A stretch of DNA of 31,884 nt from a virus. Below the pieces are notes generated by a model. That model did not search any database. It saw only the letters and a program-made list of their open reading frames with translations, and was not told the DNA's origin. The stretch covers positions 1 to 31,884 of IMG/VR virus record IMGVR_UViG_3300046513_000023, one strand, 5' to 3'. A program made the translations under genes and the position numbers. This document shows positions 13,140 to 26,453 of this stretch, piece after piece; the first letter of the stretch is position 1, and each line of letters begins with the position of its first letter.

Positions 13140-13147
13140 TGCGACAC

Positions 13148-13504: not shown

Positions 13505-13884
13505 TGCTCATCCTCCAACTGGTCGTATCCGTCGATGTACTTGTCGCCGTTCAGGTGAGCTGTCAGCTTGCCGACGCCCCGCTCGCACCGGTACGACACC
13601 GCCTGCTGGGATACGCCCTGAAAGGAGGCGATGACCCCCTGCGTGCAGTCGAGGAAGTACCTCATGAACAGGGCCTGCCTCTCCTCGAAGGAGAGGGGCG
13701 CCGCACTCCATCCGTGCCGGATGTCCGCGAGGTGGGCGAAGAGCGGACTGCCCTTCTTCGGGTCCTTGTGACCCTTCGGCATGTCGGCGTCGGGGACCTG
13801 CTCGTTCTTGATGCCGTACGCCGCCTCGGTGTCCCAGACGGCCGGGAGGATGTGCTCGACGAGAGCTCGGCTGTACCCGCTCAC
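13501..13884 (-). CDS. Sigma-70 region 4-like protein (127 aa)
   Basis: GTG 13884 overlaps the previous stop (GTGA); the longer frame to 13989 is rejected. The C-terminal half reads LSFEERQALFMRYFLDCTQGVIASFQGVSQQAVSYRCERGVGKL, i.e. L...R.al.lRYf...tq..IA...GvSqqaVS...rgv.kL. This is the helix-turn-helix pattern of sigma region 4.2, which binds the -35 element. There is no region 2. The gene directly upstream encodes a region-2-like protein, so the two together could form a bipartite sigma factor. Coupled translation fits such a complex. Confidence 0.75.
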   Translation of the reverse strand: MSGYSRALVEHILPAVWDTEAAYGIKNEQVPDADMPKGHKDPKKGSPLFAHLADIRHGWSAAPLSFEERQALFMRYFLDCTQGVIASFQGVSQQAVSYRCERGVGKLTAHLNGDKYIDGYDQLEDEQ

Positions 13885-14231
13885 ACAGTCTCCGGGTCGA
13901 ACGCTTCGAGGTTCGCCTCGTACGAGGTGTGCTGCGTCCTGTGCTTCGCCTCGGTGAGCACCTTGTCTCGCAGGCGCTGGCCGACCCATCGGTAGAACAG
14001 GCCCTCGCCCTTCGCCAGCGCGGCTCGCGCCTGGTTGGCTCGGGTTGCAGCGATGAACGCCGCCTCCTGGTAGGCGTCCTCGTACTCCAGCGTCAGGCCG
14101 TACTGGTCGGCCGCCTTGCGGGCGGCCCGCTGGAGGATGCCCTCGACTCCCTTCTCGGCGAGGATGGACCAGTCGGTCGACGCCTCCTCGACGGACTCGC
14201 TGAACTCGGTCTCGATCAGATTCAGGGTCAC
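13881..14231 (-). CDS. Sigma-70 region 2-like protein with MTLNLIE N-terminus (116 aa)
   Basis: GTG 14231 has GGAGGT upstream and overlaps the metallophosphoesterase stop (GTGA). Residues 33-85 read ILQRAARKAADQYGLTLEYEDAYQEAAFIAAT and then GLFYRWVGQRLRDKVLTEAKHR. This resembles sigma region 2: a helix, the (D/E)D..QEa.i.a core-binding segment, and an F..w....lr.k helix after it. Region 4 is absent but is encoded by the next gene. The first residues MTLNLIETEF are shared with the genes at 19872 and 21517. The assignment is by pattern and needs a profile search. Confidence 0.6.
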   Translation of the reverse strand: MTLNLIETEFSESVEEASTDWSILAEKGVEGILQRAARKAADQYGLTLEYEDAYQEAAFIAATRANQARAALAKGEGLFYRWVGQRLRDKVLTEAKHRTQHTSYEANLEAFDPETV

Positions 14232-15421: not shown

Positions 15422-15635
15422 TGGAGCCTCCTTCCTGCCGAAGTGCTCGGCGGTACGTGCGGATGGTGGTGGCGGACACGTCGTGTCCGTGCTTGCGCAG
15501 GAAGCCCGACAGCCAGTCGGCCGAGGTCTCGCCCAACAGGTGCGGCGCGAAGGCGACTTGCTCCGCCTCGGTCATCGCCGCGTAGATGTCGTGCAGGGTG
15601 GGGCCCGGCTCACCGGGCAACTCCTTCAGGCTCAC
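15405..15635 (-). CDS. Small HTH-like protein (76 aa)
   Basis: GTG 15635 lies two bases after the preceding stop. The product begins MSLKELPGEPGPTLHDIYAA. The segment TSADWLSGFLRKHGHDVSATTIRTYRRALRQEGG looks like a helix-turn-helix: a helix, turn HDVS, then recognition helix ATTIRTYRRAL. This is typical of small phage DNA-binding proteins. It overlaps the phosphoesterase start by 17 bases. The target is unknown. Confidence 0.65.
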   Translation of the reverse strand: MSLKELPGEPGPTLHDIYAAMTEAEQVAFAPHLLGETSADWLSGFLRKHGHDVSATTIRTYRRALRQEGGSSERAA

Positions 15636-15636
15636 A

Positions 15637-15825
15637 TCACACCGACCTGGTCACGGCGAGCTCGACGATCTCGACGTCTTCCGGCCAGTCCGTGTGCTCG
15701 GTTCCGAAGTAGGCGAAGTACCCAGGGGAGTCGGAGTCGTACTGGCAGAACTTGGCCAGCACCACTTCGTGCGTTCCTGGCGGAACAACGTAGGCAAGTC
15801 GGCCATGCTTCAGTTCGGCAGCCAC
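15637..15825 (-). CDS. Small hypothetical protein (62 aa)
   Basis: GTG 15825 follows directly on the TGA of the gene before. The product begins MAAELKHGRLAYVVPPGTHE and is rich in beta-forming and aromatic residues, with one Cys (FCQYDSDSPGYFAYFG). It could be a small beta-barrel. No family is recognised. Support comes from perfect packing between neighbours and typical third-position GC. Confidence 0.6.
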   Translation of the reverse strand: MAAELKHGRLAYVVPPGTHEVVLAKFCQYDSDSPGYFAYFGTEHTDWPEDVEIVELAVTRSV

Positions 15826-16035
15826 TCAGTCGAACACCCCCAACTCCGAGGCCCAGTACATCTGGACCAGCTCGAACGTCTCTTCCTTGGTGAAGCCCTC
15901 CTTGCGGAGGGATGCGCGCAGGTCACCCACGATGGAGGCGGCCCGCTTCGCGGCGGAGAAGTGATCGACGACCTCGGGCTCGGCCGTGATCTCGACTCCC
16001 TCCCACTCCTCGGGGAACTCCTCTTCGGCGCTCAC
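15826..16035 (-). CDS. Small acidic hypothetical protein (69 aa)
   Basis: GTG 16035 overlaps the stop of the gene before (GTGA). The N-terminal 25 residues are very acidic (MSAEEEFPEEWEGVEITAEP). The rest is helical, with KRAASIVGDLRASLRKEGFT and a final WASELGVFD. Such a fold could bind a partner protein. No family is recognised. Confidence 0.65.
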   Translation of the reverse strand: MSAEEEFPEEWEGVEITAEPEVVDHFSAAKRAASIVGDLRASLRKEGFTKEETFELVQMYWASELGVFD

Positions 16036-16367
16036 TTGTCGTCATCCAGGCGCTCGGCTGCGACCAGGGCTGCGGCAGCGAGCTGAATCAGAGCCTGCCT
16101 GCGATCCTCGACGAAGTGGCCCAGCGCACCGTAGGCGTGCGACATGACCAGCTTGTCGGTCCCGCCCTCTCGGCCGTACTCGCGACCCCAGGCGCGCCCA
16201 CGGTCCGCGTAGTGGCGCCTGGTGTGAGTCGGGTAGTCGCCGACGTGAACCTCGCCCAGGTTCTTGATCTCGGCCTTCAGTTCGTTGATGAGCTGCGTCA
16301 TCGGGTCCGGCTTCCGGCCGCCCTTCTTCGGCGTCTGCTCCGTCTCGACCGTCTCGGTCTCTGCCAC
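16032..16367 (-). CDS. Hypothetical protein (111 aa)
   Basis: The start at 16367 lies just after the primase stop. The first 20 residues are a polar linker with EQTPKKGGRKPDPM. The remainder is helical, with a basic aromatic stretch HTRRHYADRGRAWGREYGRE in the middle and an Ala-rich helix at the end. Such Arg/Tyr-rich sequence may contact nucleic acid. It follows the primase genes, so a replication accessory role is possible, but no family is recognised. Confidence 0.65.
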   Translation of the reverse strand: MAETETVETEQTPKKGGRKPDPMTQLINELKAEIKNLGEVHVGDYPTHTRRHYADRGRAWGREYGREGGTDKLVMSHAYGALGHFVEDRRQALIQLAAAALVAAERLDDDK

Positions 16368-16369
16368 TG

Positions 16370-17032
16370 TCAGTCCTCCTTCTTCTGGACCAGGGAGAGC
16401 AGGTGCTCTGCCCCGTGTTCCATGTAGGTGTCGGTCACGTCGGCCCGCAGTCGTACCGCCTTGGCGGAGCGAAGCTGCCGCGTGATCTTGCCAGTGAGCT
16501 CGGCCCCCGCGTCGTCCGGGTCAGCCCACGTCCACACGCGGTTGAAGCCAGCCAGCATCCGACGATGCCGCCCGAACCACATGTTGGCGCCGGGGATGGC
16601 GACAGCCGGGAGTCCGATCTTGTTCAGGATGATGGCGTCGAGCTCACCCTCGGTGACGTGGATCTCTTCGCCGGCCTTGTGGACAGCCCCGATGTTGAAC
16701 ATGCGGGGGATGTCGTCCTTGATGGTGTTGTACTTGCCGTGGAAGTAGTCGCGGTGGTTGTGCTCGGTCAGGCAGCGGAACCGCACGGTGAGCGGCTGGG
16801 CGTCCTTCCCGAGGTAAGGGATCGCGAGCATCCCTCGATACTTCTCATGGCCAGGGGCGGGGTCGGCGACGATGCCGAGCCGGAAGGCCAGTGCCTCGTC
16901 CCGCCCGATGCCTCGACTCATCAGGTATCCCGCAACGTCGGCAGTGAGGTGCGCCTGGTAGGTGCTCACCGCCTCCTCCAGCATCTCCTTCTGGGATGTC
17001 GAGAGCGGCGTGAGCGGTTCGTGCTCGGCCAA
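16370..17032 (-). CDS. TOPRIM-domain DNA primase subunit (220 aa)
   Basis: TTG 17032 is chosen as start because GGAGGA (plus strand 17040-17045) lies seven bases upstream and the frame beyond it is shadow-like. Residues 45-75 (VAGYLMSRGIGRDEALAFRL) and GMLAIPYLGKDAQPLTVRFR are typical of the DnaG catalytic-core N-part. EIHVTEGELDAIILNKIGLP gives the TOPRIM Glu, and VWTWADPDDAGAEL the DxD metal site. It synthesises RNA primers and needs the zinc-binding partner encoded just upstream. At 220 residues it lacks the helicase-binding domain, so the primase is split over two genes. Confidence 0.88.
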   Translation of the reverse strand: MAEHEPLTPLSTSQKEMLEEAVSTYQAHLTADVAGYLMSRGIGRDEALAFRLGIVADPAPGHEKYRGMLAIPYLGKDAQPLTVRFRCLTEHNHRDYFHGKYNTIKDDIPRMFNIGAVHKAGEEIHVTEGELDAIILNKIGLPAVAIPGANMWFGRHRRMLAGFNRVWTWADPDDAGAELTGKITRQLRSAKAVRLRADVTDTYMEHGAEHLLSLVQKKED

Positions 17033-17045
17033 GCTGTTCTCCTCC

Positions 17046-17477
17046 TTACTTACGCTTCCAGGCGGGCACGTAGCCGCCTCCTGGCTTCTGTCCGGGCTTC
17101 TTGCCCGCTGCCTTCCGGCCGCCTCCGTAGCGGCTGGTGTAGCCCGTCTCCTTGGCGACCGCGCCCTCTTCGAGGCCGTGCTCCTTGGCGTACGCCTTGG
17201 TCTGCTTGAAGTCGATCGCCTTGTTGAGCTGCATGTCGTGGTACTTCTCGATGAGGGTGAAGCTGTCTCCGCCGTTCGAGCAGGAGTGGCAGTTCCACAG
17301 GCCCTCGTCGAGCTTGTAGCTGAACGACGGGGTGTTGTCGTCATGCAGTGGGCACTTGGCCATGCCGCTGTTTCGCTGGTCGTTGAAGTCCACGTCGAAG
17401 TGGTGCATCACTGCTTCGAGTAGGGGCTTGCTGTCCGAGCCTCCGCCCTGGTCGGAGTCGATGCGGTGGAACCTCAC
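17046..17477 (-). CDS. CHC2-type zinc-binding primase subunit (143 aa)
   Basis: The zinc motif is plain: KCPLHDDNTPSFSY, then LWNCHSCSNGGDSFTLIEKY, i.e. CPxH...CHxC as in the N-terminal domain of DnaG. After it comes a helical region and a Lys/Gly-rich tail (GGGRKAAGKKPGQKPGGGYV) that could contact DNA. It recognises the template for primer start. GTG 17477 overlaps the stop of the 50-aa gene before. With the TOPRIM gene 13 bases downstream it forms a two-subunit primase, a known variation among actinophages. Confidence 0.92.
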   Translation of the reverse strand: MRFHRIDSDQGGGSDSKPLLEAVMHHFDVDFNDQRNSGMAKCPLHDDNTPSFSYKLDEGLWNCHSCSNGGDSFTLIEKYHDMQLNKAIDFKQTKAYAKEHGLEEGAVAKETGYTSRYGGGRKAAGKKPGQKPGGGYVPAWKRK

Positions 17478-17626
17478 GGGTGCGTCACCTCCAGGGCCTC
17501 CTCCATGGCGAGGATCGTCTCCAGGTCGGAGTCGGGGTCTTCGTTGTAGGCGAAGAACGCCTCCGTCTCGTCATGTAGTGCGTCGCGTTCGGCCTGAGTC
17601 ATGTCCCAGCCCATGAACCCGATCAC
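17474..17626 (-). CDS. Small acidic protein between nuclease and primase (50 aa)
   Basis: GTG 17626 overlaps the nuclease stop and TGA 17474-17476 overlaps the primase GTG, so the frame fills the gap with two GTGA overlaps. The product begins MIGFMGWDMTQAERDALHDE and is strongly acidic after residue 18 (17 Asp/Glu overall), mainly helical. It has no known family. It could be a partner protein of the primase or nuclease. Confidence 0.65.
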   Translation of the reverse strand: MIGFMGWDMTQAERDALHDETEAFFAYNEDPDSDLETILAMEEALEVTHP

Positions 17627-18000
17627 TGGGGGTCCAGCCCGAGGTAGTCCTCGACGGTCGTGAGCACGAACGCCTTGCGCCAGTTCTTGCCGCGCCGCTT
17701 GACGACGACGATCGACTCGACGCTCTCCAGGTCCAGGCCCCGGTGCTTGGCGAAGTGCTCGCGCTCGACCTGGGCTTCACCGAGGAAGACACCCGGCTCG
17801 AACTTCGCGTTCTTCGCCTCGATCACCAGGTACTTGCCGTCGGCTTCTCGGATGACCATGTCGCCTTCGTCCTCCGCGCCGGCCAGTCGAAGGGACTCGA
17901 CGTCGAACCCTTCCTCGCGGAGACCGTCCCGCAGGTCCGTCTCCCAGTCAGCGCCCTTGCGCTTGTTTCGCCGGTTCCTCGCCGCGATGCTGTTGCTCAA
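17623..18000 (-). CDS. Holliday-junction-resolvase-like or VRR/RecB-type nuclease (125 aa)
   Basis: The sequence RNKRKGADWETDLRDGLREEGFDVESLRLAGAEDEGDMVIREADGKYLVIEAKNAKFEP has the PD-(D/E)xK layout: Glu in helix 1, GD near 48, then E-x-K (IEAKN) near 60. Archaeal Hjc-type resolvases start the same way (KG..wE..L...L...GF). It would cut branched or replicating DNA. TTG 18000 is preferred with GGGAGG eleven bases upstream; GTG codons at 18009-18012 are too close to it. The start region contains GTGTAAGTTG, the same -10-like string seen before the 20431 gene. Confidence 0.75.
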   Translation of the reverse strand: MSNSIAARNRRNKRKGADWETDLRDGLREEGFDVESLRLAGAEDEGDMVIREADGKYLVIEAKNAKFEPGVFLGEAQVEREHFAKHRGLDLESVESIVVVKRRGKNWRKAFVLTTVEDYLGLDPQ

Positions 18001-18053
18001 CTTACACACCACCTCCCAGTAGAGCCGGGCTGCTGCCCGGCGATGTCTGCGAC

Positions 18054-18082
18054 AGTATCACACTTTACGAGCCCAGGTTCAA
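18054..18082 (-). promoter_or_regulatory. Candidate promoter TTGAAC-17-GATACT
   Basis: On the minus strand TTGAAC (18077-18082) is followed after exactly 17 bp by GATACT (18054-18059), inside the recurring motif GTGATACTGTC. It lies at the end of the ATPase gene and would start transcription of the nuclease and primase genes. This is the best-spaced of the GATACT promoter candidates. Confidence 0.45.
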
Positions 18083-18949
18083 CGCGACCTTCGTCGGGCT
18101 CCACTCCTCGGCAGGCTTCGCCTGTGCAGCCTGGATGATGGCCCGCTTCTCTGCCTTCGCGAAGCGCGTGTACTCCGGCTGGCAGATCATCGTCGCGAAG
18201 CGTCCAGCAGTCGGGTCACAGGGGCCCATACGCTGCTTGATGCACGCCACGTTGTAGGCCAGCGAGGTCGGGTCCAGAGCCACGGAGAGCGAGAGCTCCG
18301 GCTTCTCGGACAGGCCGCCCTTGACCTGGTCGCGGGACGGGGGAGCCCAAGGGTTCGTCTTGGCTTCCCAGTTCTTGTCGCTCGCGTGGTGAAGGATGAT
18401 GACCGTTGCGCCCGTGTGACGGGCCAGCTCGGTGCACCCCTGCATCACGGCCATCTGCTCGGTGTAGTCCGACTCGGCGCCCTCGAAGTCCATCAGGTTA
18501 TCGAACACGATCACCTCGGGGTACCGGTCCCACAGCTCGACGTACGCCTCCAGCTCCTCGTCGACAGCCCGCCAGGTGATGGGGGAGCCGAAGGAGAAGG
18601 TGATGTTCGAGTCGGCCAGCGCGTCGATGTACGCCTGCCTGTACTTGCCGCCCTCGGCCATGCCCGCCTCGACCATCTCGGTCGTGTCCTTCGTAGCCAT
18701 GGACGCAAGCCGTGAGCTCGCCGTGAAGGCGCTCATGTCGGCGGAGAAGTACAGCGACGGCAGGTTCATCTGGGCAACCCAGAAGAGAGCGAAGCCCGAC
18801 TTCTGTGTACCGGAGCGACCGGCCACCATGATGACCTCACCGTGCCGGGGCCGAACACCCATGGCATACAGGTCGTCGAAGGCTTCTACGCGCGGGAGTT
18901 CACGGCCGCTTGCAGCGTGGAGCGCCAGGGACCTTCCTGGGGTGAGCAC
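18065..18949 (-). CDS. DnaB/RecA-like helicase ATPase (294 aa)
   Basis: VIMVAGRSGTQKSGFALFW (about 40-58) is a Walker A motif, and EVIVFDNLMDFEG (about 145) is Walker B. TVIILHHASDKNW has the sensor-like HH after the strand, typical of replicative DnaB-type helicases. GTG 18949 is preferred because it keeps the conserved lead-in LPRVEAFDDLYAMGVRPRHG and gives a 64-base overlap with the deaminase gene; a start at ATG 18862 would remove it. At 294 residues it has only the C-terminal ATPase domain of DnaB, without the N-terminal primase-binding domain. It would unwind the phage fork with the split primase. Confidence 0.85.
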   Translation of the reverse strand: MLTPGRSLALHAASGRELPRVEAFDDLYAMGVRPRHGEVIMVAGRSGTQKSGFALFWVAQMNLPSLYFSADMSAFTASSRLASMATKDTTEMVEAGMAEGGKYRQAYIDALADSNITFSFGSPITWRAVDEELEAYVELWDRYPEVIVFDNLMDFEGAESDYTEQMAVMQGCTELARHTGATVIILHHASDKNWEAKTNPWAPPSRDQVKGGLSEKPELSLSVALDPTSLAYNVACIKQRMGPCDPTAGRFATMICQPEYTRFAKAEKRAIIQAAQAKPAEEWSPTKVALNLGS

Positions 18950-19359
18950 TCTTCGGTCTCCTCTCCTCGGACGACAACGCGTCCGATACCTACGGAAGTG
19001 ATCAGGGTGGTGCAAGCGGGGCACGGCTTGCGCGTGACGTACAGCGTCGACTCCTTCAGCAGGTCGGGGTGGATGCCCTTGTCGAGCACGTCCTCGATCG
19101 CGTTGCGCTCAGCGTGCGTGGCCGAGCAGTTGGAGTAGTCGGTATCGCGGGCGCACTCCTCGACGGAGAGCTGCCCTCGCGGGCAGTTGCCCGCACTGGC
19201 GCAACCAGGGATTCCAGGAGGCAGGCCGTTGTAGCCCAGCCCCAGTACCCGCTTGCGCTTGCTCAGGATCACGGCGCCCACCTGGGCCCGCGTACAGTCG
19301 GCCATCGTGGCGACCTCGGCGGCGATGTTCAGCGCCCACTGATCTCTCGAAGGTCTCAC
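18886..19359 (-). CDS. dCMP deaminase
   Basis: The zinc-dependent deaminase motifs are clear: SATHAERNAIEDVLDKG (HAE) and LYVTRKPCPACTTLI (PCxxC). CASAGNCPRGQLSVEECARD gives extra Cys typical of dCMP deaminases with a second zinc site. The enzyme makes dUMP from dCMP and so feeds ThyX. Length is 157 residues. GTG 19359 has GGAGGGAGGG upstream and overlaps the stop of a 12-codon leader ORF, which suggests coupled or attenuated translation. Confidence 0.95.
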   Translation of the reverse strand: MRPSRDQWALNIAAEVATMADCTRAQVGAVILSKRKRVLGLGYNGLPPGIPGCASAGNCPRGQLSVEECARDTDYSNCSATHAERNAIEDVLDKGIHPDLLKESTLYVTRKPCPACTTLITSVGIGRVVVRGEETEECSPQEGPWRSTLQAAVNSRA

Positions 19360-19394
19360 TCGACCCTCCCTCCTGCCCGCAGGGGCGGGCTCAT
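19356..19394 (-). CDS. Putative 12-codon leader ORF of the dCMP deaminase gene
   Basis: ATG 19394 has a strong AAGGAGG site a few bases upstream, and the frame codes for MSPPLRAGGRVE before TGA 19356-19358, which overlaps the deaminase GTG (GTGA). Within it a 6-bp hairpin (GCCCGC 19375-19380 with GCGGGC 19385-19390) precedes the second ribosome site AGGAGGGAGGG. Translation of the leader would open the hairpin. The peptide has no features of its own. Confidence 0.4.
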   Translation of the reverse strand: MSPPLRAGGRVE

Positions 19395-19434
19395 GAACCT
19401 CCTTCCGGTTCGTAGCGACACTTACACAGTCAGG

Positions 19435-19872
19435 TCAGTCGAAGTCGGGAGCGTCAGCGACAGCCTCCTCGGCCGCCTTCTCCCGCTCCTCGGCGTACGC
19501 GACGACCGCGTTGCGGACACCCGCGTCGGTCACCGGACGCCACACCCACGCCGGGTGCGCACCGGGCTTCTTCGGGGGCACCTGCTCCAGGCGCACGATC
19601 GTGGCACCACCGACGATGGTCTCCAGGTCGCGGGCGAGGATGGTCTGCTCGATCCTCTGGCCCTTGGTCACCTGCGGGGTGCCGGCCTGGAGAGCGCCAC
19701 CGTCCTGGAAGACGGTCACGTCAGCGAGGACGGAGTCCTTCGGGCCGTTCGGGGTCGGCCGCTGACGCTCGAAGGAGTGGACCTCCAGCAGGATGGCGGG
19801 AGCGCTTAGGTTGTCCTTCGGCTTGAACCAGCCGCCGCCCTGGACCGGGATGTCGATGAGGTTGAGGGCCAC
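19435..19872 (-). CDS. Candidate single-stranded DNA-binding protein (145 aa)
   Basis: The protein starts MALNLIDIPVQGGGWFKPKD. It has beta-type segments (APAILLEVHSF, DSVLADVTVFQD, IVGGATIVRLEQVP) and AHPAWVWRPV. It ends in an acidic tail with aromatic end (EEAVADAPDFD), as is usual for SSBs. The overall layout fits an OB-fold SSB-like protein of actinophages, but no signature proves it. The first nine residues are the same as in the nuclease at 21517 and similar to the sigma-region-2-like protein. It sits among replication genes. Confidence 0.55.
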   Translation of the reverse strand: MALNLIDIPVQGGGWFKPKDNLSAPAILLEVHSFERQRPTPNGPKDSVLADVTVFQDGGALQAGTPQVTKGQRIEQTILARDLETIVGGATIVRLEQVPPKKPGAHPAWVWRPVTDAGVRNAVVAYAEEREKAAEEAVADAPDFD

Positions 19873-19945
19873 TGTGTTGATCTCCTTCGTTCGTTGCCCA
19901 CGCGGGCAGTTACGGTGCGATGTGTTGGTTGGTACTGCGGTTGGA

Positions 19946-20431
19946 TCAGGCGGCGCTGAGCGCCTTGCCCTTCGCCTTCCATGCGGCCATGACTGCCGGG
20001 TCGGCGAAGAAGGACTGGTTCTCGGCCCAGAGCTTCTTCAGCTCCTGGACGGTGGTCTTCTTCTCGATCTCCCCAAGGATGTACGCGTTGGGGTCTTCCT
20101 TCTTCGGCTCTGCGACACTTGCACTGCCCGGCCAGGGGGCGGACTGGGTTGCAGACGCAGCAGCCCACGGGTCGTCGGTCGGAGGCTTGGCCGGCTCGGT
20201 GATCTCCTCAACCACCGTGGCTCCGAGCGCCGTAGCGATCAGCCCCTTGCCGTGCGCGATCTGGGTCGCGTTCGTCACGACGCTGCTCAGGCTCAGGCCC
20301 ACCTGTGTCGCAGGGTCCATCCCGAAGAAGTCCAGGATGTCGGCCCTGATCTCCGAGGTCGTCCCTCGGAAGACCGCCCAGGTGGCGTCGTGCCCCTTGT
20401 CGTACTTGATCGTGACGCTCAGTTCACTCAC
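19946..20431 (-). CDS. Hypothetical actinophage replication-region protein (161 aa)
   Basis: GTG 20431 lies behind two tandem promoter candidates. The N-terminal domain (MSELSVTIKYDKGHDATWAV... to about residue 65) is a compact beta/alpha unit with TSEIRADILDFFGMD and SSVVTNATQIAHGKG. A Pro-rich linker follows, then a helical C-terminal domain (KKTTVQELKKLWAENQSFFA). This two-domain plan with a DNA-metabolism neighbourhood is common in actinophages, but the function is unknown to me. It could be an SSB or recombination partner. Confidence 0.75.
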   Translation of the reverse strand: MSELSVTIKYDKGHDATWAVFRGTTSEIRADILDFFGMDPATQVGLSLSSVVTNATQIAHGKGLIATALGATVVEEITEPAKPPTDDPWAAASATQSAPWPGSASVAEPKKEDPNAYILGEIEKKTTVQELKKLWAENQSFFADPAVMAAWKAKGKALSAA

Positions 20432-20467
20432 TGTGTTTCGTTCCCCTCTCTCTCGCCGTCGTTGTCC

Positions 20468-20496
20468 AACTTACACGATCTCGGTAAGCTGTGCAA
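20468..20496 (-). promoter_or_regulatory. Promoter P2: TTGCAC-17-TAAGTT
   Basis: On the minus strand TTGCAC (20491-20496) and TAAGTT (20468-20473) are 17 bp apart. The -10 lies in a 17-bp element (plus strand CGTTGTCCAACTTACAC at 20460-20476) repeated exactly 72 bp away in P1. It would transcribe the gene at 20431 with a short leader. Confidence 0.55.
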
Positions 20497-20539
20497 CTCT
20501 CGCCCTGCATCTCCGGGGCGTTCCCCGTTGACGTTGTCC

Positions 20540-20568
20540 AACTTACACACTCTGGGAGTTGAAGTCAA
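20540..20568 (-). promoter_or_regulatory. Promoter P1: TTGACT-17-TAAGTT
   Basis: On the minus strand TTGACT (20563-20568) and TAAGTT (20540-20545) are 17 bp apart, close to the vegetative sigma consensus. The -10 with its downstream GGACAACG is identical to P2. The -35 lies inside the 18-bp palindrome at 20555-20572, a likely operator. Confidence 0.6.
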
Positions 20569-20572
20569 CTCC
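20555..20572. promoter_or_regulatory. Perfect palindromic operator candidate
   Basis: GGAGTTGA 20555-20562 and TCAACTCC 20565-20572 are exact inverted repeats around AG, covering the -35 of P1. A protein bound here would block that promoter. Confidence 0.55.
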
Positions 20573-20575
20573 GGT

Positions 20576-21517
20576 TCATGTGGCCTGCGTCACGAAGGGC
20601 TTCAGTGCACCCTTCGTCCCGCGCGCCTTGCGGATGGTGAGTGCAAGGTTCGCGAGTGCCCACCCGATGTTCAGGTCGGCCCAGTACAGGTTACACACTC
20701 CAGTGCCAGCAGGCAAGTGGACGATGATGCCCCAGTCCTGGTTAACAGGAGGCAGCGGCGAGTAAGCCTGGGCGGCCTGCTCGGCGGTGAACTCCTGCTT
20801 CTTCCATGCCTTGATCGCGTCCTTGTCGTCCGCGTTCACGGGGAAGAGCGTGTGGTCGTACAGCTTGCCGCGCGAGTACACCGCGAGCTGTGACGCCATC
20901 TTCAGCTTGCCGTACTCGATCGAGCCGGTCTTCGTGTCCGTGATGAAGTTGCCCGAGATCGGCTTGCCGTCCGGGCCGGGGCCCTCGTAGTACGACAGCC
21001 GGTCGAACGTGCCACCCACCGACAGGTCAGGCACCACGACGAACTGCTCGATGGCCACGACGGTCAGTGCGGCCGTGGCTGCCATGTACGCCGCCATGTC
21101 GTCGAGGTCCGCGCCCGAGATGGTCCTGGGCAGCGGGTCTCCACGGTCGACATACTCCGACAGGTCGTGCAGGTAGGTGCCCTTGCGCGACTTGTCGTTC
21201 GCGCCGGCTGCATCCTCCGCCTGCTCGACGAGGGCGTTCAGCTTCTTCTTGTCGCTGGAGTCCTCGGGGTCCAGGTGCCGCGCCTTGTCCGCCAGGTCCG
21301 GGCGCCTCGTCATGCCGACCAGGACGTTGCGGGCCTTCCAGTCGATCAGGTTCGACTTGTCCTCGATGCAGTCGATGAACGTCGTCGTGCGGGTGTGGCC
21401 CTTCGGGTTGCCGCCGAGCTCGGGGACGATGAGCGGACGGCCCCAGCCGTCGCGCGGTACGGACAGGTTCGGATGCAGGGGCTTCGCCTGCGGGATCTCG
21501 ATGAGATTCAGGGCCAC
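20576..21517 (-). CDS. Cas4/RecB-type PD-(D/E)xK exonuclease (313 aa)
   Basis: The core is SVGGTFDRLSYYEGPGPDG followed by ISGNFITDTKTGSIEYGKLKMASQLAVYS, i.e. G..DRl..........DtKTG......k...Ql..Y. This is the RecB/Cas4 nuclease motif with D, D-x-K and the Q..Y helix. KGTYLHDLSEYVD gives the upstream His/Glu helix. It probably resects DNA ends for recombination or replication. No Fe-S Cys cluster is visible. The start MALNLIEIPQA is shared with the gene at 19872. It follows the 21529 gene closely. Confidence 0.85.
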   Translation of the reverse strand: MALNLIEIPQAKPLHPNLSVPRDGWGRPLIVPELGGNPKGHTRTTTFIDCIEDKSNLIDWKARNVLVGMTRRPDLADKARHLDPEDSSDKKKLNALVEQAEDAAGANDKSRKGTYLHDLSEYVDRGDPLPRTISGADLDDMAAYMAATAALTVVAIEQFVVVPDLSVGGTFDRLSYYEGPGPDGKPISGNFITDTKTGSIEYGKLKMASQLAVYSRGKLYDHTLFPVNADDKDAIKAWKKQEFTAEQAAQAYSPLPPVNQDWGIIVHLPAGTGVCNLYWADLNIGWALANLALTIRKARGTKGALKPFVTQAT

Positions 21518-21528
21518 TCAGTTCTCCT

Positions 21529-21996
21529 TCAGTTCGAGTTCGATACGGCAGGGACGACGGAGGAGATCGGCTCGACGTTCGCCGGGGACTTCTCCGCAGT
21601 GGATGCAGGGCCGTGGGCGAGCGGGCTCGGTATCAGGAACGCGATCGAGACGCTTGCCGCAAGGCCGAAGCCGAGGGCGATGCGCTTGCCGGTGGAGCAC
21701 TTCGCCTTGACCGGCACGACGGCGTACAGCTCGACGGGCGCGAGGTAGATGCGGATGCTTCCGTCCTCAAGGATCTCGGGGTCCATCTCGTCCTCGTCCA
21801 GTACTTCCAGACCTCGCGACTTGGCCACGTCGAGCACCGTCCTCATGGCGCTCGGCTTGTGCCCCGGCCTCGCGACGATGTGGAAGTCGTAGTCCTCCTC
21901 GTCGACTATCAGCGTGATCAGCTTGTCCGGAGAGCTGTACTCCGCGCTCCATCCTCCTGGGTAAGTAGCAGCGCCCGCCCCCTCATGGTTTCCCAC
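21529..21996 (-). CDS. Single-pass membrane hypothetical protein (155 aa)
   Basis: GTG 21996 has AGGAGG eight bases upstream. Residues 1-105 are soluble, with LITLIVDEEDYDFHIVARPG and DEDEMDPEILEDGSIRIYLA. A hydrophobic segment RIALGFGLAASVSIAFLIP at about 110-128 forms one membrane helix, followed by a Ser/Ala/Pro tail. With a late helix and no signal peptide the N-part would stay in the cytoplasm. No family is recognised. It is the first gene of the leftward replication block, after the regulatory zone. Confidence 0.7.
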   Translation of the reverse strand: MGNHEGAGAATYPGGWSAEYSSPDKLITLIVDEEDYDFHIVARPGHKPSAMRTVLDVAKSRGLEVLDEDEMDPEILEDGSIRIYLAPVELYAVVPVKAKCSTGKRIALGFGLAASVSIAFLIPSPLAHGPASTAEKSPANVEPISSVVPAVSNSN

Positions 21997-22206
21997 TTGA
22001 TCAACCTCCTTGTGTGCAAGTGTCGCTGACTCGGATCATCATGCACGCCCACCAGAAGGGAGTCAAGCTCGACCTCCACGATGTGAGACGAACCGATCAC
22101 ACACTTCATGATCCGGAATGTATGACTCCACAACTGTGGAGATGGTTGCACGGGATGCGCATAAATTTGAAGTTTCATCTACTGACGGGTCAACTTGGAC
22201 ACGAAG
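21997..22206. other. Long intergenic regulatory zone, locally AT-rich
   Basis: No convincing gene lies in this stretch. It has the GTGTGCAAGTGTCGC motif at 22013-22027 and an AT-richer section near 22155-22185 (ATAAATTTGAAGTTTCATC). On the minus strand it has possible promoter elements (TTGACC near 22192, TACATT at 22118-22123) in front of the leftward operon. Two weak ORFs, one on each strand, have no ribosome sites. Confidence 0.5.
22126..22141. promoter_or_regulatory. Palindromic operator candidate
   Basis: CTCCACA 22126-22132 and TGTGGAG 22135-22141 are perfect inverted repeats around AC. The site is immediately upstream, on the minus strand, of a possible -10 TACATT (22118-22123). A 16-bp perfect dyad in a gap between operons is a likely repressor site, and the neighbouring HTH gene is an obvious candidate binder. 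Confidence 0.5.
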
Positions 22207-22237
22207 GAGCCCCCCGCAGCTTCACTACGAGGGGCTC
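22207..22237. terminator. Hairpin terminator after the HTH gene
   Basis: GAGCCCC 22207-22213 and GGGGCTC 22231-22237 pair over a 17-nt loop. It is about 30 bases beyond the stop of the HTH gene on the minus strand and would separate that transcript from the replication operon. There is no U-tract. Confidence 0.65.
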
Positions 22238-22267
22238 TACTCGACACCGTTGTCAGACCTGACTTCG

Positions 22268-22726
22268 TCAGTCCTTGTCCGCATTGGGGCGCGGTGTCGT
22301 CTTGTGCTTCGGGCGGTGGATGAGGTCATCGTCGCCCTCCTGACGTGGGACGTAGAAGAATCCTTCATCAGTCTCCGGGTCGTAGTGAACGACCGCGTCC
22401 TCCTCCTTCAGCATCTCCAGCCAGTTCCCCAGCCGGGAGGTGTCCGTCTCGGTCAGGTCTTTGCCGGCCCGGCGCCGAGCCTCTGCTCGGAGCATCGCCA
22501 GCGGGTAGGCCCAGCGGTGCTCTTCCTTCACGAACCAGGGGATGAGCTCGTCATCCCGGACGATTCGACGGTCCAGTCCGCGCCGACGCCGGAAGTTCCC
22601 CCACATCGAGGCGACGGTGTCGATGTTGTACTTGCGTTTGTATTCCTTGATCATCCAGTCGTAGGTGCGTCCCTCCTCGAACCAGCGAATGACCTCCTGC
22701 TCGTCCTGGATCTTGCGCTTACCCAT
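22268..22726 (-). CDS. HTH DNA-binding protein, candidate immunity repressor (152 aa)
   Basis: ATG 22726 has GAGGAGGC directly upstream; the longer GTG start at 22738 overlaps that site. Residues 10-50 (EVIRWFEEGRTYDWMIKEYKRKYNIDTVASMWGNFRRRRGL) look like a HTH with a basic recognition helix. A second helical unit (DELIPWFVKEEHRWAYPLAM) and RLGNWLEMLKEEDAVVHYDP...FFYVPR, a winged-helix-like hairpin, follow. The gene stands alone between a divergent promoter region with direct repeats and a terminator, as expected for a phage repressor. That role is inference from position. Confidence 0.75.
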   Translation of the reverse strand: MGKRKIQDEQEVIRWFEEGRTYDWMIKEYKRKYNIDTVASMWGNFRRRRGLDRRIVRDDELIPWFVKEEHRWAYPLAMLRAEARRRAGKDLTETDTSRLGNWLEMLKEEDAVVHYDPETDEGFFYVPRQEGDDDLIHRPKHKTTPRPNADKD

Positions 22727-22776
22727 GAGCCTCCTCACTCCGTTGTGATCTTGGGACTGTGTAACACTTCCACACT

Positions 22777-22800
22777 ACCGCGCACTGGTCAACCGCGCAC
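22777..22800. promoter_or_regulatory. Direct-repeat operator around a TTGACC -35 element
   Basis: ACCGCGCAC occurs at 22777-22785 and 22792-22800. Between them, on the minus strand, is TTGACC (22787-22792), a good -35, with a weak -10 AAGTGT 17 bp later. The repeats flank the -35 of the presumed HTH-gene promoter and lie in the divergent gap, so they could control both directions. An outer inverted repeat, ATCTTGG (22748-22754) and CCAAGAT (22820-22826), surrounds the region. Confidence 0.5.
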
Positions 22801-22844
22801 GGGTATCGTTGAAGTCACACCAAGATGCACACCGGGAGGGCGGC

Positions 22845-23183
22845 ATGAAGCTGCAAGTGATCGCTTGCGACATCGATCAGAAGTTCCCCGCCAAGACTTA
22901 CACCATCACAGCAAGCGATGGTCGCAGCATCACGAAGGATCTGTGCGAGGAGCACGCCGAACCCTTCGAGGAATGGCTGGAGGAGGCGGAGCTCGGCGAG
23001 GCGTCGGAGGCGGGGCCGACCGAGGAGTTCGTCGCGCAGGTGACGAAGGCGCTCAGCGAGCATGAGGCTGGAGAGCGCAAGGAGCGAGCCGCTGCGGTGA
23101 AGAAGACGGCCGCCAAGAAGACGACAGCTCGACGGCGACCGAAGATCGTGTCACTCGAAGAGATCGAGGCCAAGAAGGGCTGA
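22845..23183 (+). CDS. Small protein with basic tail, Lsr2-like or nucleoid-type (112 aa)
   Basis: ATG 22845 has GGGAGGG four bases upstream. The first 45 residues (KLQVIACDIDQKFPAKTYTITASDGRSITKDLCEEHAEPF) resemble the small actinobacterial module CDxD...A...y.i..dG....DLCxxH, which pairs Cys and His. An acidic helix follows, then a Lys/Arg-rich tail with KKTAAKKTTARRRPK, much like nucleoid proteins or AT-hook-like arms. It is the only plus-strand gene in this half and is divergent from the HTH gene. A role in silencing or chromosome-structure mimicry is plausible but unproven. Confidence 0.7.
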   Translation: MKLQVIACDIDQKFPAKTYTITASDGRSITKDLCEEHAEPFEEWLEEAELGEASEAGPTEEFVAQVTKALSEHEAGERKERAAAVKKTAAKKTTARRRPKIVSLEEIEAKKG

Positions 23184-23194
23184 GACGACGAGAG

Positions 23195-23226
23195 AGCCCC
23201 CGCCAGCCACAGGGCCAGCGGGGGCT
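23195..23226. terminator. Bidirectional hairpin terminator between convergent genes
   Basis: AGCCCCCGC 23195-23203 pairs with GCGGGGGCT 23218-23226 (9 bp) over a 14-nt loop, followed by T. It lies between the convergent basic-tail gene (ends 23183) and holin gene (ends 23232) and can stop both. Confidence 0.9.
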
Positions 23227-23231
23227 TCCGC

Positions 23232-23444
23232 TTACTCGGAGTCGGACTGCTCGACGAAGCCGAACGCGGTCAGCGCCTGAATGGCGAGCGCGACCTGCGG
23301 GTAGTCGGTGCCGAAGTAGGTGGCCAGGGACAGGGCCACGCCGATACCGGCCGCGACCAGTCCGGCCTTGGACTTGTACTTGGTGGGCAGGGCCCCGGCG
23401 ATACGCGCCAGGCCCTTGCTCGTCACCTTCGCGTGCTTACTCAC
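23232..23444 (-). CDS. Holin (70 aa)
   Basis: GTG 23444 overlaps the lysin stop (GTGA); longer frames read into the lysin gene. After a basic N-terminus (MSKHAKVTSKGLARIAGALP) come two hydrophobic stretches, AGLVAAGIGVALSLATYFG (about 27-45) and VALAIQALTAFGFV (about 51-64), and a short acidic tail. Two membrane helices, small size and position next to the endolysin fit a phage holin that opens the cytoplasmic membrane at lysis. It is the last gene of the late operon before the terminator. Confidence 0.85.
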   Translation of the reverse strand: MSKHAKVTSKGLARIAGALPTKYKSKAGLVAAGIGVALSLATYFGTDYPQVALAIQALTAFGFVEQSDSE

Positions 23445-24352
23445 TTGATGCCAGCCTCCTTCTGGAGCTCCTTGAAGCCGGACTTGCCGATGACCGGGTC
23501 GTACGACTTGCCTGCGGTGCGCAGGTGGGGGTTCTTGTTGTGGAACCGGGCGACCGCCTTCTGGGTCTCCGGGCCGTAGTAGGTGGAGTACGCGCCATGG
23601 ATCGGGCCGTAGCCCGCCTTCACCAGGAAGTGCTGGAGATCCTTGACCTGGGCGTGCCGGGCGCCAGGCTTGACGGCCGGGTTCAGGGCGACGACCTTCG
23701 AGACCGGCTTGGGAGCAGGCTTCGTAGGAGCGGGCTTCGCCGGGGCAGGCTTGGTGGGGGCGGGCGTGCCCTTCTTCGCCTTGACCAGCTCGATCAGCCG
23801 CTTGATCGGGAAGTTGCCGGGGTCGCCGTGGTCGTTCTCGGGAACGTGCTGGTGACCGCAGATCCCCTTGAACGCCTCCCACTCGGCGAAGCTCATGCGC
23901 TGCCCGCTCTTCGAGCCGTAGCTCGTCGGGTAGCTCAGCCACGGCTTCGAGGTGGAGACGAGCGGAACGTCGTAGGTGTCAGTCAGCCAGTCGACCAGGT
24001 CGACGAGGCCGGCGAGGTCAGCGTCGGACGCGCCCGGCCAGAACAGGCCCGGCCCACCCTTGGCACAGGTGCCGACGAGCTCGATCTGGATGACGTTGAG
24101 GGTGTTGGTGTCAACACCCCCAGCCTTGTTGACCAGGGCCCGAGCGGAGTGGTTGGCGTAGAAGTGCTGGTGCACCTCCTTGCCCTTGACGGTGAAGGTC
24201 GGCGCCGAGCCGCCCCCTCCGTACGAGGGGAACGAGCCGCCCTCGGTGGTGTGGATGACGATGACGTTCGGGTGGGGCATGGCGTCACCGGAGTACGCCT
24301 TGCCGAACCACTGGACGGTGGCGTTGCCACCGGGGTAGATGTGCGCAGTCAA
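23441..24352 (-). CDS. Endolysin: Amidase_2 domain with peptidoglycan-binding domain (303 aa)
   Basis: The N-terminal domain has NVIVIHTTEGGS (first zinc His near 32), HQHFYANHSARALVNKAGG and GHQHVPENDHGDPGNFPIKRL, the zinc-ligand and active-site set of N-acetylmuramoyl-L-alanine amidase type 2. A Thr-Lys-Pro-Ala-Pro linker at about 200-215 follows. The C-terminal part (KDLQHFLVKAGYGPIHGAYSTYYGPETQKAVARFHNKNPHL) is a peptidoglycan-binding repeat. There is no signal peptide, so it needs the holin. Its gene is separated from the upstream gene by a strong hairpin. Confidence 0.96.
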   Translation of the reverse strand: MTAHIYPGGNATVQWFGKAYSGDAMPHPNVIVIHTTEGGSFPSYGGGGSAPTFTVKGKEVHQHFYANHSARALVNKAGGVDTNTLNVIQIELVGTCAKGGPGLFWPGASDADLAGLVDLVDWLTDTYDVPLVSTSKPWLSYPTSYGSKSGQRMSFAEWEAFKGICGHQHVPENDHGDPGNFPIKRLIELVKAKKGTPAPTKPAPAKPAPTKPAPKPVSKVVALNPAVKPGARHAQVKDLQHFLVKAGYGPIHGAYSTYYGPETQKAVARFHNKNPHLRTAGKSYDPVIGKSGFKELQKEAGIK

Positions 24353-24375
24353 GAGAGCGAACCTCCTTGGGTACG

Positions 24376-24412
24376 CCGAAGGCCCCGCCTCGCTTGGAGA
24401 CAGGGCCTTCGG
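24376..24412. terminator. Hairpin terminator upstream of the lysin gene
   Basis: CCGAAGGCCC 24376-24385 pairs with GGGCCTTCGG 24403-24412 (10 bp) over a 17-nt loop. It lies between the DUF2746-like gene (ends 24424) and the lysin start, so it may reduce read-through or cap the 3' end of tail transcripts. Confidence 0.75.
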
Positions 24413-24423
24413 GGGTGGGTTGG

Positions 24424-24777
24424 TCAGGCAGCGGCCGAGACGATGTGGTCGTCCAGGCGCTCTTCGACGGACAGGCGCTCACGACGCTCATGCGCGATCT
24501 CGTCGCGCAGGCTTCCGAGGTCCCTGCTGTGTCGGTCCAGGGCTTCGCCGTGGCGGTCCTGATTGTCGATGACGCGGTCGATGCGGAACATCACCGAGTC
24601 GAGGTCGTCGCGCAGGTTGGTGTCGTGAGTGTTGGAGACCTGATCACGCACCTCGGAGAGGGTGTTGGTCTGGCGGCGGATGAGCTCAGCGAAGACACCG
24701 ACGACGGCCACCATGACGGTGCCGCCTGCGGTCACCAGCGCCACTTGCACACCGCTGTCAAGGGCGAGGGCAGTCAC
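24424..24777 (-). CDS. DUF2746-like membrane and coiled-coil protein (117 aa)
   Basis: One membrane helix near the N-terminus (VTAGGTVMVAVVGVFAELI, about 15-33) is followed by a charged coiled coil to the end (DSVMFRIDRVIDNQDRHGEALDRHS and on). This matches the DUF2746 plan found near lysis genes of actinophages, where it is probably a second holin or spanin-like protein. The start at 24777 overlaps the fibre gene stop by four bases. Confidence 0.75.
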   Translation of the reverse strand: MTALALDSGVQVALVTAGGTVMVAVVGVFAELIRRQTNTLSEVRDQVSNTHDTNLRDDLDSVMFRIDRVIDNQDRHGEALDRHSRDLGSLRDEIAHERRERLSVEERLDDHIVSAAA

Positions 24778-26048
24778 GACAGCTTGGCCTCCAGGCGGGC
24801 CAGACGCTCTTCCAGATCGCTGATCTGCTTGGCCTGGCGCTGGACGACGGGGAGCAGGGCCACGCCCAGGAGGTCGTAGCGCAGGGCGTCGACCTCGCCG
24901 TCCATGTACTGGACGATCCAGTTGAGCCCGAGGTCGTGGGCCTCGTCAGCGATCAGGCCGACCTCGCCCTTGCGGCCCGGACGGAGCTTGCCGGTCTCCT
25001 CGTCGACCTGGTCCTTGCGGTCGTAGATGACCGGCCGCATCTTCAGGACGGTGTCCGGGTCGATCTCGAAGTCCTGGATGTTCTCCTTGAACTTCCGGGC
25101 AGAGGTGTTGCGGCAGAAGGTACCGGAGCCCTCGACCCAGACCGCGTACCAGGTGCCGTCCGTCGCCGTGTTGGAGTACGGCTTCTTCGAGCCGTTCGCC
25201 CAGGAGATCGTGTCGCCGGACTCCAGGTAGCTGGAGTGGGAGTGCGAGCTCGGCGTGAAGGTCGACGGCTTGGAGGTGATCGAAGTCCAGGAGTGCGAGT
25301 GGGTCGACGGTGCGAAGGTCGTAGGCTTGCCGGTGACGTCGTCCCAGTCGTGCGAGTGTGCGGACGGAGCGAAGGTGGTCGGCTTGCCGGTGACGTCGGC
25401 GTACGCGTGCGTGTGCGTCGAGGGCGTGAAGCTGGACGGCTTGTTGGTCAGCGTGTTCCAGTCAACCGCCGCGACCAGCGAGGTCCAGGCCGTACCGTTC
25501 CAGTACTCCCAGGTGCTCGTCGACTGATTGAAGCCCAGGCGCCCGACGCGAGGCGAGGCGGGGCGGGTGTTGGTGGTCCAGCCGCCCACCGAGTTCCCGA
25601 GGAACTGGCGCTCGCCCTGCACGGAGGCAGCGGAGATCGAGGTGACGTTGGCACCGACCGCGACCGTAGCCAGGCCGAACTCGTAGACTCCCGTGTCCGT
25701 CTGGGTCAGGGCAGGCGGAGTCGACGAGCCGGCCGTTCCGGTCTTGACGGCCAGCGTGATGGAGTTGGTGGCCGGGTCCAGCTTCAGGACCACGCGGTCC
25801 ACGCGGGCCGAGGTGTTGGACGCCGCGATCGTCAGGTTCTCGGTCGCCGTCGAGTAGATGGCGTGGCCGCGAACGATGGCGAAGCCAGGGCTGACCTTGG
25901 CGGTCATCCCGGTGCCGTCTGCGTAGGTGTAGAGCGCGCTGCCACCGACACCGTCAGCGACGCCAGTCTCCTGGAACTCGCGGAACAGGCGCGAGTAGTC
26001 GGTCTCGGTAATCGACTGAGCGTCGAAGGGGTACGAAGTGATCGCCAC
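24774..26048 (-). CDS. Tail fibre with His-rich repeats and S74 intramolecular chaperone (424 aa)
   Basis: The N-terminal half is a structural tail protein. At about 205-290 four tandem units of the form NKPSSFTPSTHTHAY / GKPTTFAPSAHSHDW repeat a KPxTFxPSxHxH pattern, which in other phage fibres coordinates metal ions along the trimer. The C-terminal part SARKFKENIQDFEIDPDTVL begins an S74 peptidase domain; the Ser and Lys are the expected auto-cleavage pair. DRKDQVDEETG, VGLIADEAHDLGL and a final coiled coil complete it. The chaperone would be cut off after trimerisation. Confidence 0.9.
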   Translation of the reverse strand: MAITSYPFDAQSITETDYSRLFREFQETGVADGVGGSALYTYADGTGMTAKVSPGFAIVRGHAIYSTATENLTIAASNTSARVDRVVLKLDPATNSITLAVKTGTAGSSTPPALTQTDTGVYEFGLATVAVGANVTSISAASVQGERQFLGNSVGGWTTNTRPASPRVGRLGFNQSTSTWEYWNGTAWTSLVAAVDWNTLTNKPSSFTPSTHTHAYADVTGKPTTFAPSAHSHDWDDVTGKPTTFAPSTHSHSWTSITSKPSTFTPSSHSHSSYLESGDTISWANGSKKPYSNTATDGTWYAVWVEGSGTFCRNTSARKFKENIQDFEIDPDTVLKMRPVIYDRKDQVDEETGKLRPGRKGEVGLIADEAHDLGLNWIVQYMDGEVDALRYDLLGVALLPVVQRQAKQISDLEERLARLEAKLS

Positions 26049-26066
26049 TCGGAAGTCCTCCTTGGG

Positions 26067-26453
26067 TTACAGGGTGTAGGTGCCGGTGATCCGGAGATTC
26101 CGGTTGGTGACGACGGACTGGTTGTAGCTCGTCGTGCGAAGCTGGATCTCGCCAGTGCTGAGGATGACCGCCTCGCCGCTGACGGTCCCGTCGCCCCAGG
26201 CTGCGTTGACCGTCACGGGCGGCCGGTAGCCGTCCGGGAGTGTGGCGATCGTCGGCTCGGGAGTGAGGTTCTCGGTGTTCGATGTAGGGGTGAGGGATGT
26301 GGCGTCCACGAACTTCAGGTACGCATGGAAGGTCGCCACTCCGTTGATCTTCGATGCGTAGAAGCTGTTGATGGTCCACGAACTCGACACGGTGAGGCCC
26401 GTGGTTGTCGTGGTTGGCGCCTCGGCAGGAGGCGGGTAGAGGGATGCTCCCAC
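26067..26453 (-). CDS. Small tail-associated protein (128 aa)
   Basis: GTG 26453 has AGGAG seven bases upstream; GTG 26459 is too close to it. The sequence starts MGASLYPPPAEAPTTTTTGL and is beta-rich, with SWTINSFYASKINGVATFHA and EAVILSTGEIQLRTTSYNQS. This looks like a small fibre-tip or C1q/jelly-roll-like head domain. It lies between two large fibre genes on the same strand, so it is probably a receptor-binding component. Confidence 0.7.
   Translation of the reverse strand: MGASLYPPPAEAPTTTTTGLTVSSSWTINSFYASKINGVATFHAYLKFVDATSLTPTSNTENLTPEPTIATLPDGYRPPVTVNAAWGDGTVSGEAVILSTGEIQLRTTSYNQSVVTNRNLRITGTYTL

Follow-up and report, generated by a model that had tools for sequence, protein, structure and literature searches.

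A candidate promoter and operator region upstream of the immunity repressor gene of an R4-like Streptomyces phage

We propose that the gap between an immunity repressor gene and a divergently transcribed small basic gene in a 31,884-base virus record (the window, meaning the whole stretch of DNA that was analysed) holds the promoter and operator of the phage's repressor gene, with a weak repressor site lying over the -10 of its promoter, Prep; we put the probability of this reading at roughly 0.75. The features in and beside the gap are the following:

22268..22726, minus strand: gene of the putative immunity repressor, 152 aa, with an HTH and a stoperator-type domain (phrog_3929 at 8.5e-88; 86% identical to R4 gp29)
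22761..22774, minus strand: stoperator-like site TGTGGAAGTGTTAC over the presumed -10, oriented with repressor transcription (profile score 14.5)
22764..22769, minus strand: presumed -10 AAGTGT of the repressor promoter, within the operator-like site, assigned by spacing and conservation
22777-22800, minus strand: direct repeat GTGCGCGGT-TGACCA-GTGCGCGGT with copies at 22777-22785 and 22792-22800, found in 1 of 36 distinct regions
22787..22792, minus strand: -35 hexamer TTGACC of the presumed repressor promoter (TTGAC with AAGTGT 17-18 nt on in 32 of 36 regions)
22788..22801, minus strand: degenerate site CGTGCGCGGTTGAC over the -35 (core score -9.2 in the window), with a counterpart TGTGCAAGGTTGAC in some relatives
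22804..22809, plus strand: candidate -10 TATCGT of the divergent gene, proposed from its complement GATAC, which is conserved in 28 of 36 regions
22814-22832, minus strand: conserved element GTGTGNATNTTGGTGTGAC in the leader of the divergent gene, containing an ATCTTGG arm and resembling a degenerate site
22845..23183, plus strand: divergent small gene, 112 aa, defined by an alignment of 27 sequences and by a profile

In the mechanism that we envisage, the repressor presumably targets some two dozen asymmetric sites of 14 bp across the window, of which a sub-consensus copy at 22761-22774 would cover the Prep -10, while a more degenerate copy, eroded here, would cover the -35. Plentiful repressor would fill the strong sites first and then the weak Prep sites, and in this way throttle its own synthesis, and scarce repressor would leave Prep free. 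The silencing of lytic genes itself would be the task of a strong operator at 22013-22026 together with the stoperators. Such an autoregulatory logic is known in kind since cluster A phages have a repressor-binding site upstream of rep (according to PMC6550527). The repressor family, the site family, the orientation and conservation of the sites and the relative weakness of the Prep site are read from the sequence; from these we infer the activity of Prep, repressor binding, autoregulation and any effect of the repressor on the divergent gene.

A tblastn search with R4 proteins shows that the window has the genes of Streptomyces phage R4 in the same order, in the opposite orientation to the R4 record; we identify the window as part of the genome of an R4-like Streptomyces phage. 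R4 belongs to Arquatrovirinae, R4-like phages are assigned to group BD in PMC10276819, and the DNA around the control region matches 172 Streptomyces phage records at 60-80% identity. A match spans 80% or more of the repressor in 172 phage records. Two other genes of the window are worth recording. An endolysin gene with Amidase_2 and PG_binding_1 domains lies at 23441-24352 (minus strand), and the R4 lysin had no tblastn match in the window at 1e-5, so that the lysin may have been exchanged relative to R4. At 2754-3137 (plus strand), the window encodes a homologue of the R4 OCR-like antirestriction protein with an identity of only 39%.

For comparison of the control region, we assembled 45 sequences (the window, R4 and 43 IMG/VR loci), which left 36 distinct regions after merging of duplicates; locus L003 is identical to the window in the control region and was merged with it. 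An additional alignment of 34 regions comprises 32 distinct regions and genome loci L080 and L085, all chosen for containing TTGAC and AAGTGT at a distance of 17 or 18 nt, so that the invariance of these two words among the 34 regions is by construction and the unbiased figures are those from the 36 regions. Relatives of the repressor were also found at 31 genome loci (L080-L110), including Micromonospora, Nocardioides, Cellulomonas, Lentzea, Kitasatospora, Glycomyces and Blastococcus. These loci are probably prophages, and the repressor family reaches beyond Streptomyces phages.

The preliminary description of this DNA had called the left gene an HTH gene, and homology makes its product most likely an immunity repressor of the L5/TipsytheTRex type. 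Among the PHROGs, the protein matches phrog_3929 ("transcriptional repressor") at 8.5e-88 and, more weakly, phrog_357 at 5.7e-10; its relatives among the matches listed are annotated as "immunity repressor" or "transcriptional repressor", and the R4 record labels its homologue as "similar to L5 gp71". The solved structure that clearly resembles it is PDB 7r6r, a cluster A2 mycobacteriophage repressor bound to DNA, which is both the best profile match and the best fold match. Chain 7r6r_A was found at 2e-6 with phmmer, where two designed proteins ranked above it by a match limited to a repeated 18-residue stretch, and at 3.8e-9 with the profile. In a Foldseek search with the repressor model (pLDDT 83.7), 7r6r was the sole match at E 0.001 or better (2.9e-5), and VIA-align superimposed 134 residues (residues 2-144) at Z 10.5 and an rmsd of 3.8; the other VIA-align matches (Z under 7, mostly over residues 1-54) were set aside as generic helical ones. 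The N-terminal 50 residues are helical in the model (9-17, 22-33 and 39-48), as expected for an HTH. Positions 51-145 of the repressor profile align to residues 80-182 of the 7r6r chain and would thus represent the stoperator domain, because this domain spans residues 75-181 in the numbering of PMC9283540.

The search for the presumed binding sites of this repressor started from word counts. Of the words present in the control gap, AGTGTGGAAGTGT and ACTGTGGAAGTGT were among those most enriched in the window and in R4 alike; the top words of the first k-mer count also included ribosome-binding-site-like words and GAAGATCGCCGAG words. We then used a site profile grown from a seed word on nine genomes (R4, G001, G002, G003, G005, G006, G009, G010 and G013), with the control regions and the window excluded from training. 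The 342 training sites share an asymmetric 14-bp core, TGTG[C/T/A]AAGT[G/T][T/G]N[G/A]C. At a score of 12 or more, the window has 23 sites, whereas its reversed control has 4 and two Markov sequences have 1.0 on average; R4 has 34 sites in 50.0 of its 51.1 kb, versus 4 reversed and 0 Markov. The reversed-sequence control is thus not empty, with 2-7 matches per genome at score 12. In R4, where intergenic DNA makes up 5.4% of the genome, 11 of the 34 sites at score 10 or more lie between genes, 15 at the edges of genes and 8 within them; 29 point in the direction of transcription, 2 are mixed and 3 point against it. The 24 sites of the window at the same threshold follow its two transcription arms, with 11 on the plus strand (1323-7135) and 12 on the minus strand (13137-26443), and the one exception is the plus-strand site at 22008.

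Together, the repressor and the sites of the window form, as judged from these features, a repressor-stoperator system of the L5/R4 type: We found a repressor with HTH and stoperator domain, many asymmetric sites, and their co-directional placement at gene edges and between genes. A candidate operator at a presumed early lytic promoter is also seen in the sequence, as a strong site beside a TTGAC promoter-like sequence. The repressor-stoperator system of R4 itself is reported in PMC10276819, which cites Smith 2013. As a side observation, a stoperator subtype TGTGATACTGT(G/C)(A/G)C recurs beside the TGTGYAAGTGT types, at 4453, 5338, 15110 and 18045 of the window and at 28349 and 31307 of R4.

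In three more distant genomes outside the training set, matches to the profile were fewer or ambiguous, with 33 sites versus 7 reversed in G012, 8 versus 6 in G014 and 7 versus 6 in G015. In these three, the genomes of loci L040, L042 and L044, respectively, the word TGTGACAGTG is enriched, with 7, 15 and 13 copies versus 0 in one Markov sequence each. This enrichment, together with the few R4-type sites in G014 and G015, suggests that the roughly 75% identical repressor of this group has an altered site specificity. The distant relatives with the differing motif are ones that we take to be Camvirus-like. With a separate profile for them, an opposite-orientation site in the control region scores 13.6 and 14.2 in two genomes, a preliminary result for which the reversed control is uninformative because the motif is nearly the same when read backwards.

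Within the gap, we read TTGACC (22792->22787) and AAGTGT (22769->22764) as the presumed -35 and -10 of the repressor gene. TTGACC had been proposed as a -35 in the preliminary description, and it probably is a real one, as 32 of the 36 regions have TTGAC at a distance of 17-18 nt (counted without the sixth base of the hexamer) from AAGTGT; the arrangement is absent from L040, L042, L043 and L044. Of the 34 regions selected by this pattern, 27 have a spacing of 17 and 7 a spacing of 18, and their best conserved blocks are GATAC, GTTGAC and GTAnTGTGGAAGTGTTACA. AAGTGT is a weak match to the -10 consensus, and a general promoter scan did not report the TTGACC/AAGTGT pair. TAGTGT (22777->22772) was considered as a -10 and discarded, given that it is only 9 nt from TTGACC and that no good -35 for it was seen by eye.

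The presumed -10 coincides with the single match of the site profile in the gap, at 22757-22779 (minus strand) with its core TGTGGAAGTGTTAC at 22761-22774, and GTGGAAGTGT is found in 32 of the 36 distinct regions. The core of this site scores 13.2 or more in 26 of 34 regions and 7.7-11.2 in the other 8; in G013 the site scores 5.0 on the full profile. It is consistently one of the weakest of its family: it ranks 22nd of 23 in the window and 33rd of 34 in R4, and in each of the ten genomes compared its score is one of the bottom six. What sets it apart is a G at core position 5 in all ten genomes, where 361 other sites have C (164), T (117) or A (80), a comparison that is partly circular in that the profile penalises G. 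Core position 13 is normal in 9 of the 10 genomes, and the remaining bases are ordinary for a stoperator or mildly off. An independent word search found GTGGAAGTG in all ten control regions and at just 5 other places in 13 genomes, one of which is stoperator-like (TGGTGGAAGTGTCGC in G001). Since the same G deviation occurs in every R4-type relative, it would result either from selection for low affinity, as in autoregulation, or from promoter constraint; the sub-consensus site suggests one or the other, and sequence alone does not choose between them.

The -35 is overlain by a more degenerate copy, the left part of which is the left copy of the direct repeat. In 4 of 34 regions (L004, L025, L032 and L034), TGTGCAAGGTTGAC or TGTGCAAGCTTGAC stands over the -35 with a score of 13 or more, and most other regions retain TGTGCA and GTTGAC there and differ in the middle. 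The -10 and -35 elements have the same orientation and are 27-28 bp apart. TTGAC occurs 882 times in 13 genomes, and a single occurrence scores 12 or more: that in the G006 control region, G006 being the genome to which L032 belongs. Upstream of the repressor, genome loci L090 and L091 also carry a site whose last bases are TTGAC (scores 15.6 and 13.2, respectively). Besides these, genome loci L081 and L082, where no divergent gene was recognised, carry a stoperator-like site upstream of the repressor, with scores of 21.1 and 14.9, respectively.

The gap had been described as divergent, and it is indeed bounded on the right by a small gene on the opposite strand. A divergent homologue was recognised by profile in 43 of 43 IMG/VR loci (duplicates unmerged) and in 15 of 27 bacterial genome loci (the 31 loci minus four partial matches), the other 12 having none recognised within 900 bp. 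The divergent pair with the repressor spans Streptomyces phages to Micromonospora and Nocardioides genome loci. In the 27-sequence alignment, a CD block in the N-terminal part is followed by a variable, basic middle part and by a conserved C-terminal RRR..(K/R)(V/I)x(S/T)(L/F)xxIE. In the low-confidence model (pLDDT 64.9), the N-terminal part of the protein is possibly Lsr2-like: The best Foldseek match was the Lsr2 dimerization domain 4e1p, not significant at E 0.55, and two deposited relatives are named "Lsr2-like DNA bridging protein". A Pfam search of the 27 family members at E 0.1 found no Lsr2 model, and NCBIfam gave no match for the window's protein. The non-significant 4e1p match and the Pfam result make "Lsr2-like" a lead only. 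PMC8612146 describes Lsr2 in cluster BD as sitting upstream of the integrase, and the divergent gene differs from that Lsr2 by its location. For the divergent gene, we saw no convincing -35 by eye to go with its candidate -10. The GTGTGNATNTTGGTGTGAC element in its leader was left uncounted as a repressor site, being too degenerate, with a core score of -2.8 in the window; the score is low in most relatives and reaches 10.5-13.7 in L010, L015, L019, L024, L032 and L080.

On the other side of the repressor gene, a hairpin, a promoter-like TTGACT-17-CATGAT, a reverse-oriented strong site and the early operon follow in this order:

22207..22237, minus strand: hairpin after the repressor gene, a presumed terminator with a 14-bp stem (a 72-nt stretch folds at z -4.48)
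22038..22066, minus strand: TTGACT-17-CATGAT, the presumed early lytic promoter, ahead of the early operon (from the R4 gp30 homologue on), found by promoter scan
22013..22026, plus strand: TGTGCAAGTGTCGC, a strong operator-like site that faces the presumed early promoter from a short distance downstream (score 23.2)

The hairpin was not called by a terminator scan that requires a T run. TTGAC is found at the corresponding place of the early promoter in most relatives, usually as TTGACA, and a site in the same place and orientation scores 20 or more in R4 and in 36 of the 42 IMG/VR loci that are long enough (duplicates unmerged), the six without it being L038, L039, L040, L042, L043 and L044. 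Among three genome loci checked, it is present in L085 alone. By its sequence and position, the site at 22013-22026 seems the better candidate than the gap for an operator of the lytic switch. With the presumed early promoter and the strong operator-like site both downstream of the repressor gene, the gap looks like a place of repressor autoregulation rather than a lambda-type CI/Cro switch. The suggestion that it is a genetic switch of the phage thus holds insofar as the gap is a real and conserved repressor control region, and this region is probably not the main lytic switch, which we would place around the operator-like site and presumed promoter at 22008-22066.

Attention had originally been drawn to the gap by repeats, and these could themselves be operators: the GTGCGCGGT direct repeats flanking the -35 on the one hand, and an outer palindrome of ATCTTGG and CCAAGAT on the other. 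All of these strings exist where they had been reported. GTGCGCGGTTGACCAGTGCGCGGT occurs once, at 22777-22800 on the minus strand, even with up to 3 mismatches allowed; TTGACC (22792->22787, minus strand) overlaps its upstream copy by one base, and on the plus strand the repeat can be extended to 13 nt at 92% identity (22777-22789 / 22792-22804). CCAAGAT (22820-22826) is the exact reverse complement of ATCTTGG (22748-22754), and the two are thus the arms of a 7-bp inverted repeat, 65 nt apart. When the 104-bp region was simulated with an order-1 model, 49 of 3000 sequences had a 9-nt direct repeat at a spacing of 9-30, as did 12 of 3000 mononucleotide shuffles and 11 of the window's own 306 tiles of 104 bp; the direct repeat is therefore slightly out of the ordinary in DNA of this length. 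The 7-bp inverted repeat, by contrast, is at chance level, since one turned up in 542 of 2000 simulations and in 89 of the 306 tiles, and GTGCGCGGT with at most one mismatch occurs 18 times in the window versus a mean of 18.6 in shuffles, which is not above expectation. It speaks for the repeats that the left copy occupies the position where some relatives carry operator-like sequence over the -35, and that the right copy is within one base of TGTG[C/T]AGGTGTA[T/C]C, which is found in four relatives with core scores of 12.3-13.7. Against them, the exact spaced repeat is confined to the window among 36 distinct control regions, ATCTTGG occurs together with CCAAGAT in 5 of the 36, and both GTGCGCGGT copies score far below the site profile. 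Neither repeat can therefore be upheld as a conserved signal: We dropped the direct repeat as an operator on its conservation and the profile score of both copies and the palindrome for being at chance level, and an explanation of the gap by these repeats has hardly any chance of being right.

Two other explanations deserve more weight. The conserved TGTGGAAGTGT might be nothing but the -10 region of a promoter, its likeness to a stoperator being a coincidence or a relic without repressor binding. It does coincide with the presumed -10, so that a promoter alone could account for its conservation, and both its low rank in all ten genomes and its G at core position 5, absent from other profile sites, would fit. 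Yet ten of the eleven leading core bases agree with the stoperator consensus, and Markov sequences yield 0-1 matches per genome at a score of 13 or more, whereas a site with such a score is present at this very place in 9 of 10 R4-type genomes. The sites upstream of the repressor in bacterial genome loci L081 and L082 lack the G, and in cluster A phages the gap that corresponds to this one contains a repressor site (according to PMC6550527); on balance we consider a promoter-only origin quite unlikely. A lambda-like switch, in which the repressor and the divergent product, as a Cro analogue or antirepressor, compete for the gap, would match the divergence of the gene pair, seen in all 43 IMG/VR loci and in 15 of 27 genome loci, and the candidate -10 TATCGT with its complement in 28 of 36 regions. 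The divergent protein, however, has no match to an HTH family and no helical HTH in its low-confidence model, the gap contains no conserved palindromic operator beyond the chance-level inverted repeat, and the strong operator-like site and the presumed early promoter are located elsewhere, all of which renders this explanation very doubtful.

Beyond our preferred reading of the gap as Prep with a weak repressor site, a broader arrangement can be imagined: R4-type phages and related actinobacterial elements might share a divergent two-gene switch in which paired sub-consensus operators over -35 and -10 (27-28 bp apart) set the repressor level after the strong sites are filled, with the divergent, possibly Lsr2-like protein, which would be transcribed from the same gap, as second silencer or counter-regulator. 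We regard this as unlikely. If true, a divergent two-gene stoperator switch would have no described counterpart in cluster A phages, for which PMC6550527 reports evidence neither for a Cro analogue nor for divergent transcription of the CI/Cro type. Within the listings and passages that it covered, our literature search found no description of this control region or of its divergent partner. Regulation of repressor synthesis in L5 and D29 was called not well understood in 2017 (PMC5712189). A conserved and consistently weak Prep site beside 22-44 other sites per record makes a titration-type model of autoregulation directly testable in laboratory Streptomyces, and the small basic gene on the opposite strand offers a specific candidate for a further regulator.

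Most likely, the control region is explained by an already known kind of system. It is closest to the repressor-stoperator system of R4, with which it shares a repressor of 86% identity, the surrounding gene order, the site family and the site over the -10 in the control region; the GTGCGCGGT repeat is particular to the window, and R4 has GTGCACAGTTGACCGTGCTGAG in its place. Compared with L5, whose Pleft lies at the right genome end, the repressor gene of the window is found near lysis genes, divergent from a small basic gene and with the presumed early promoter directly downstream. Like the window, the cluster A mycobacteriophages (L5, TipsytheTRex) combine a repressor of two domains with numerous asymmetric sites of 13-14 bp that follow the direction of transcription and with a repressor site upstream of rep, as described in PMC6550527, PMC9283540 and PMC5712189, while the L5 site has a different sequence, GGTGG(C/A)TGTCAAG (PMC5712189). 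According to PMC6550527, the repressor-binding site in the intergenic region upstream of rep is conserved in cluster A and has been proposed to serve autoregulation in L5. The divergent product, finally, may resemble the actinobacterial nucleoid-associated protein Lsr2 in a short beta-beta-alpha unit and a basic part of its low-confidence model, and differs from it by the lack of a Pfam Lsr2 match and by its RRR..(K/R)(V/I)x(S/T)(L/F)xxIE tail.
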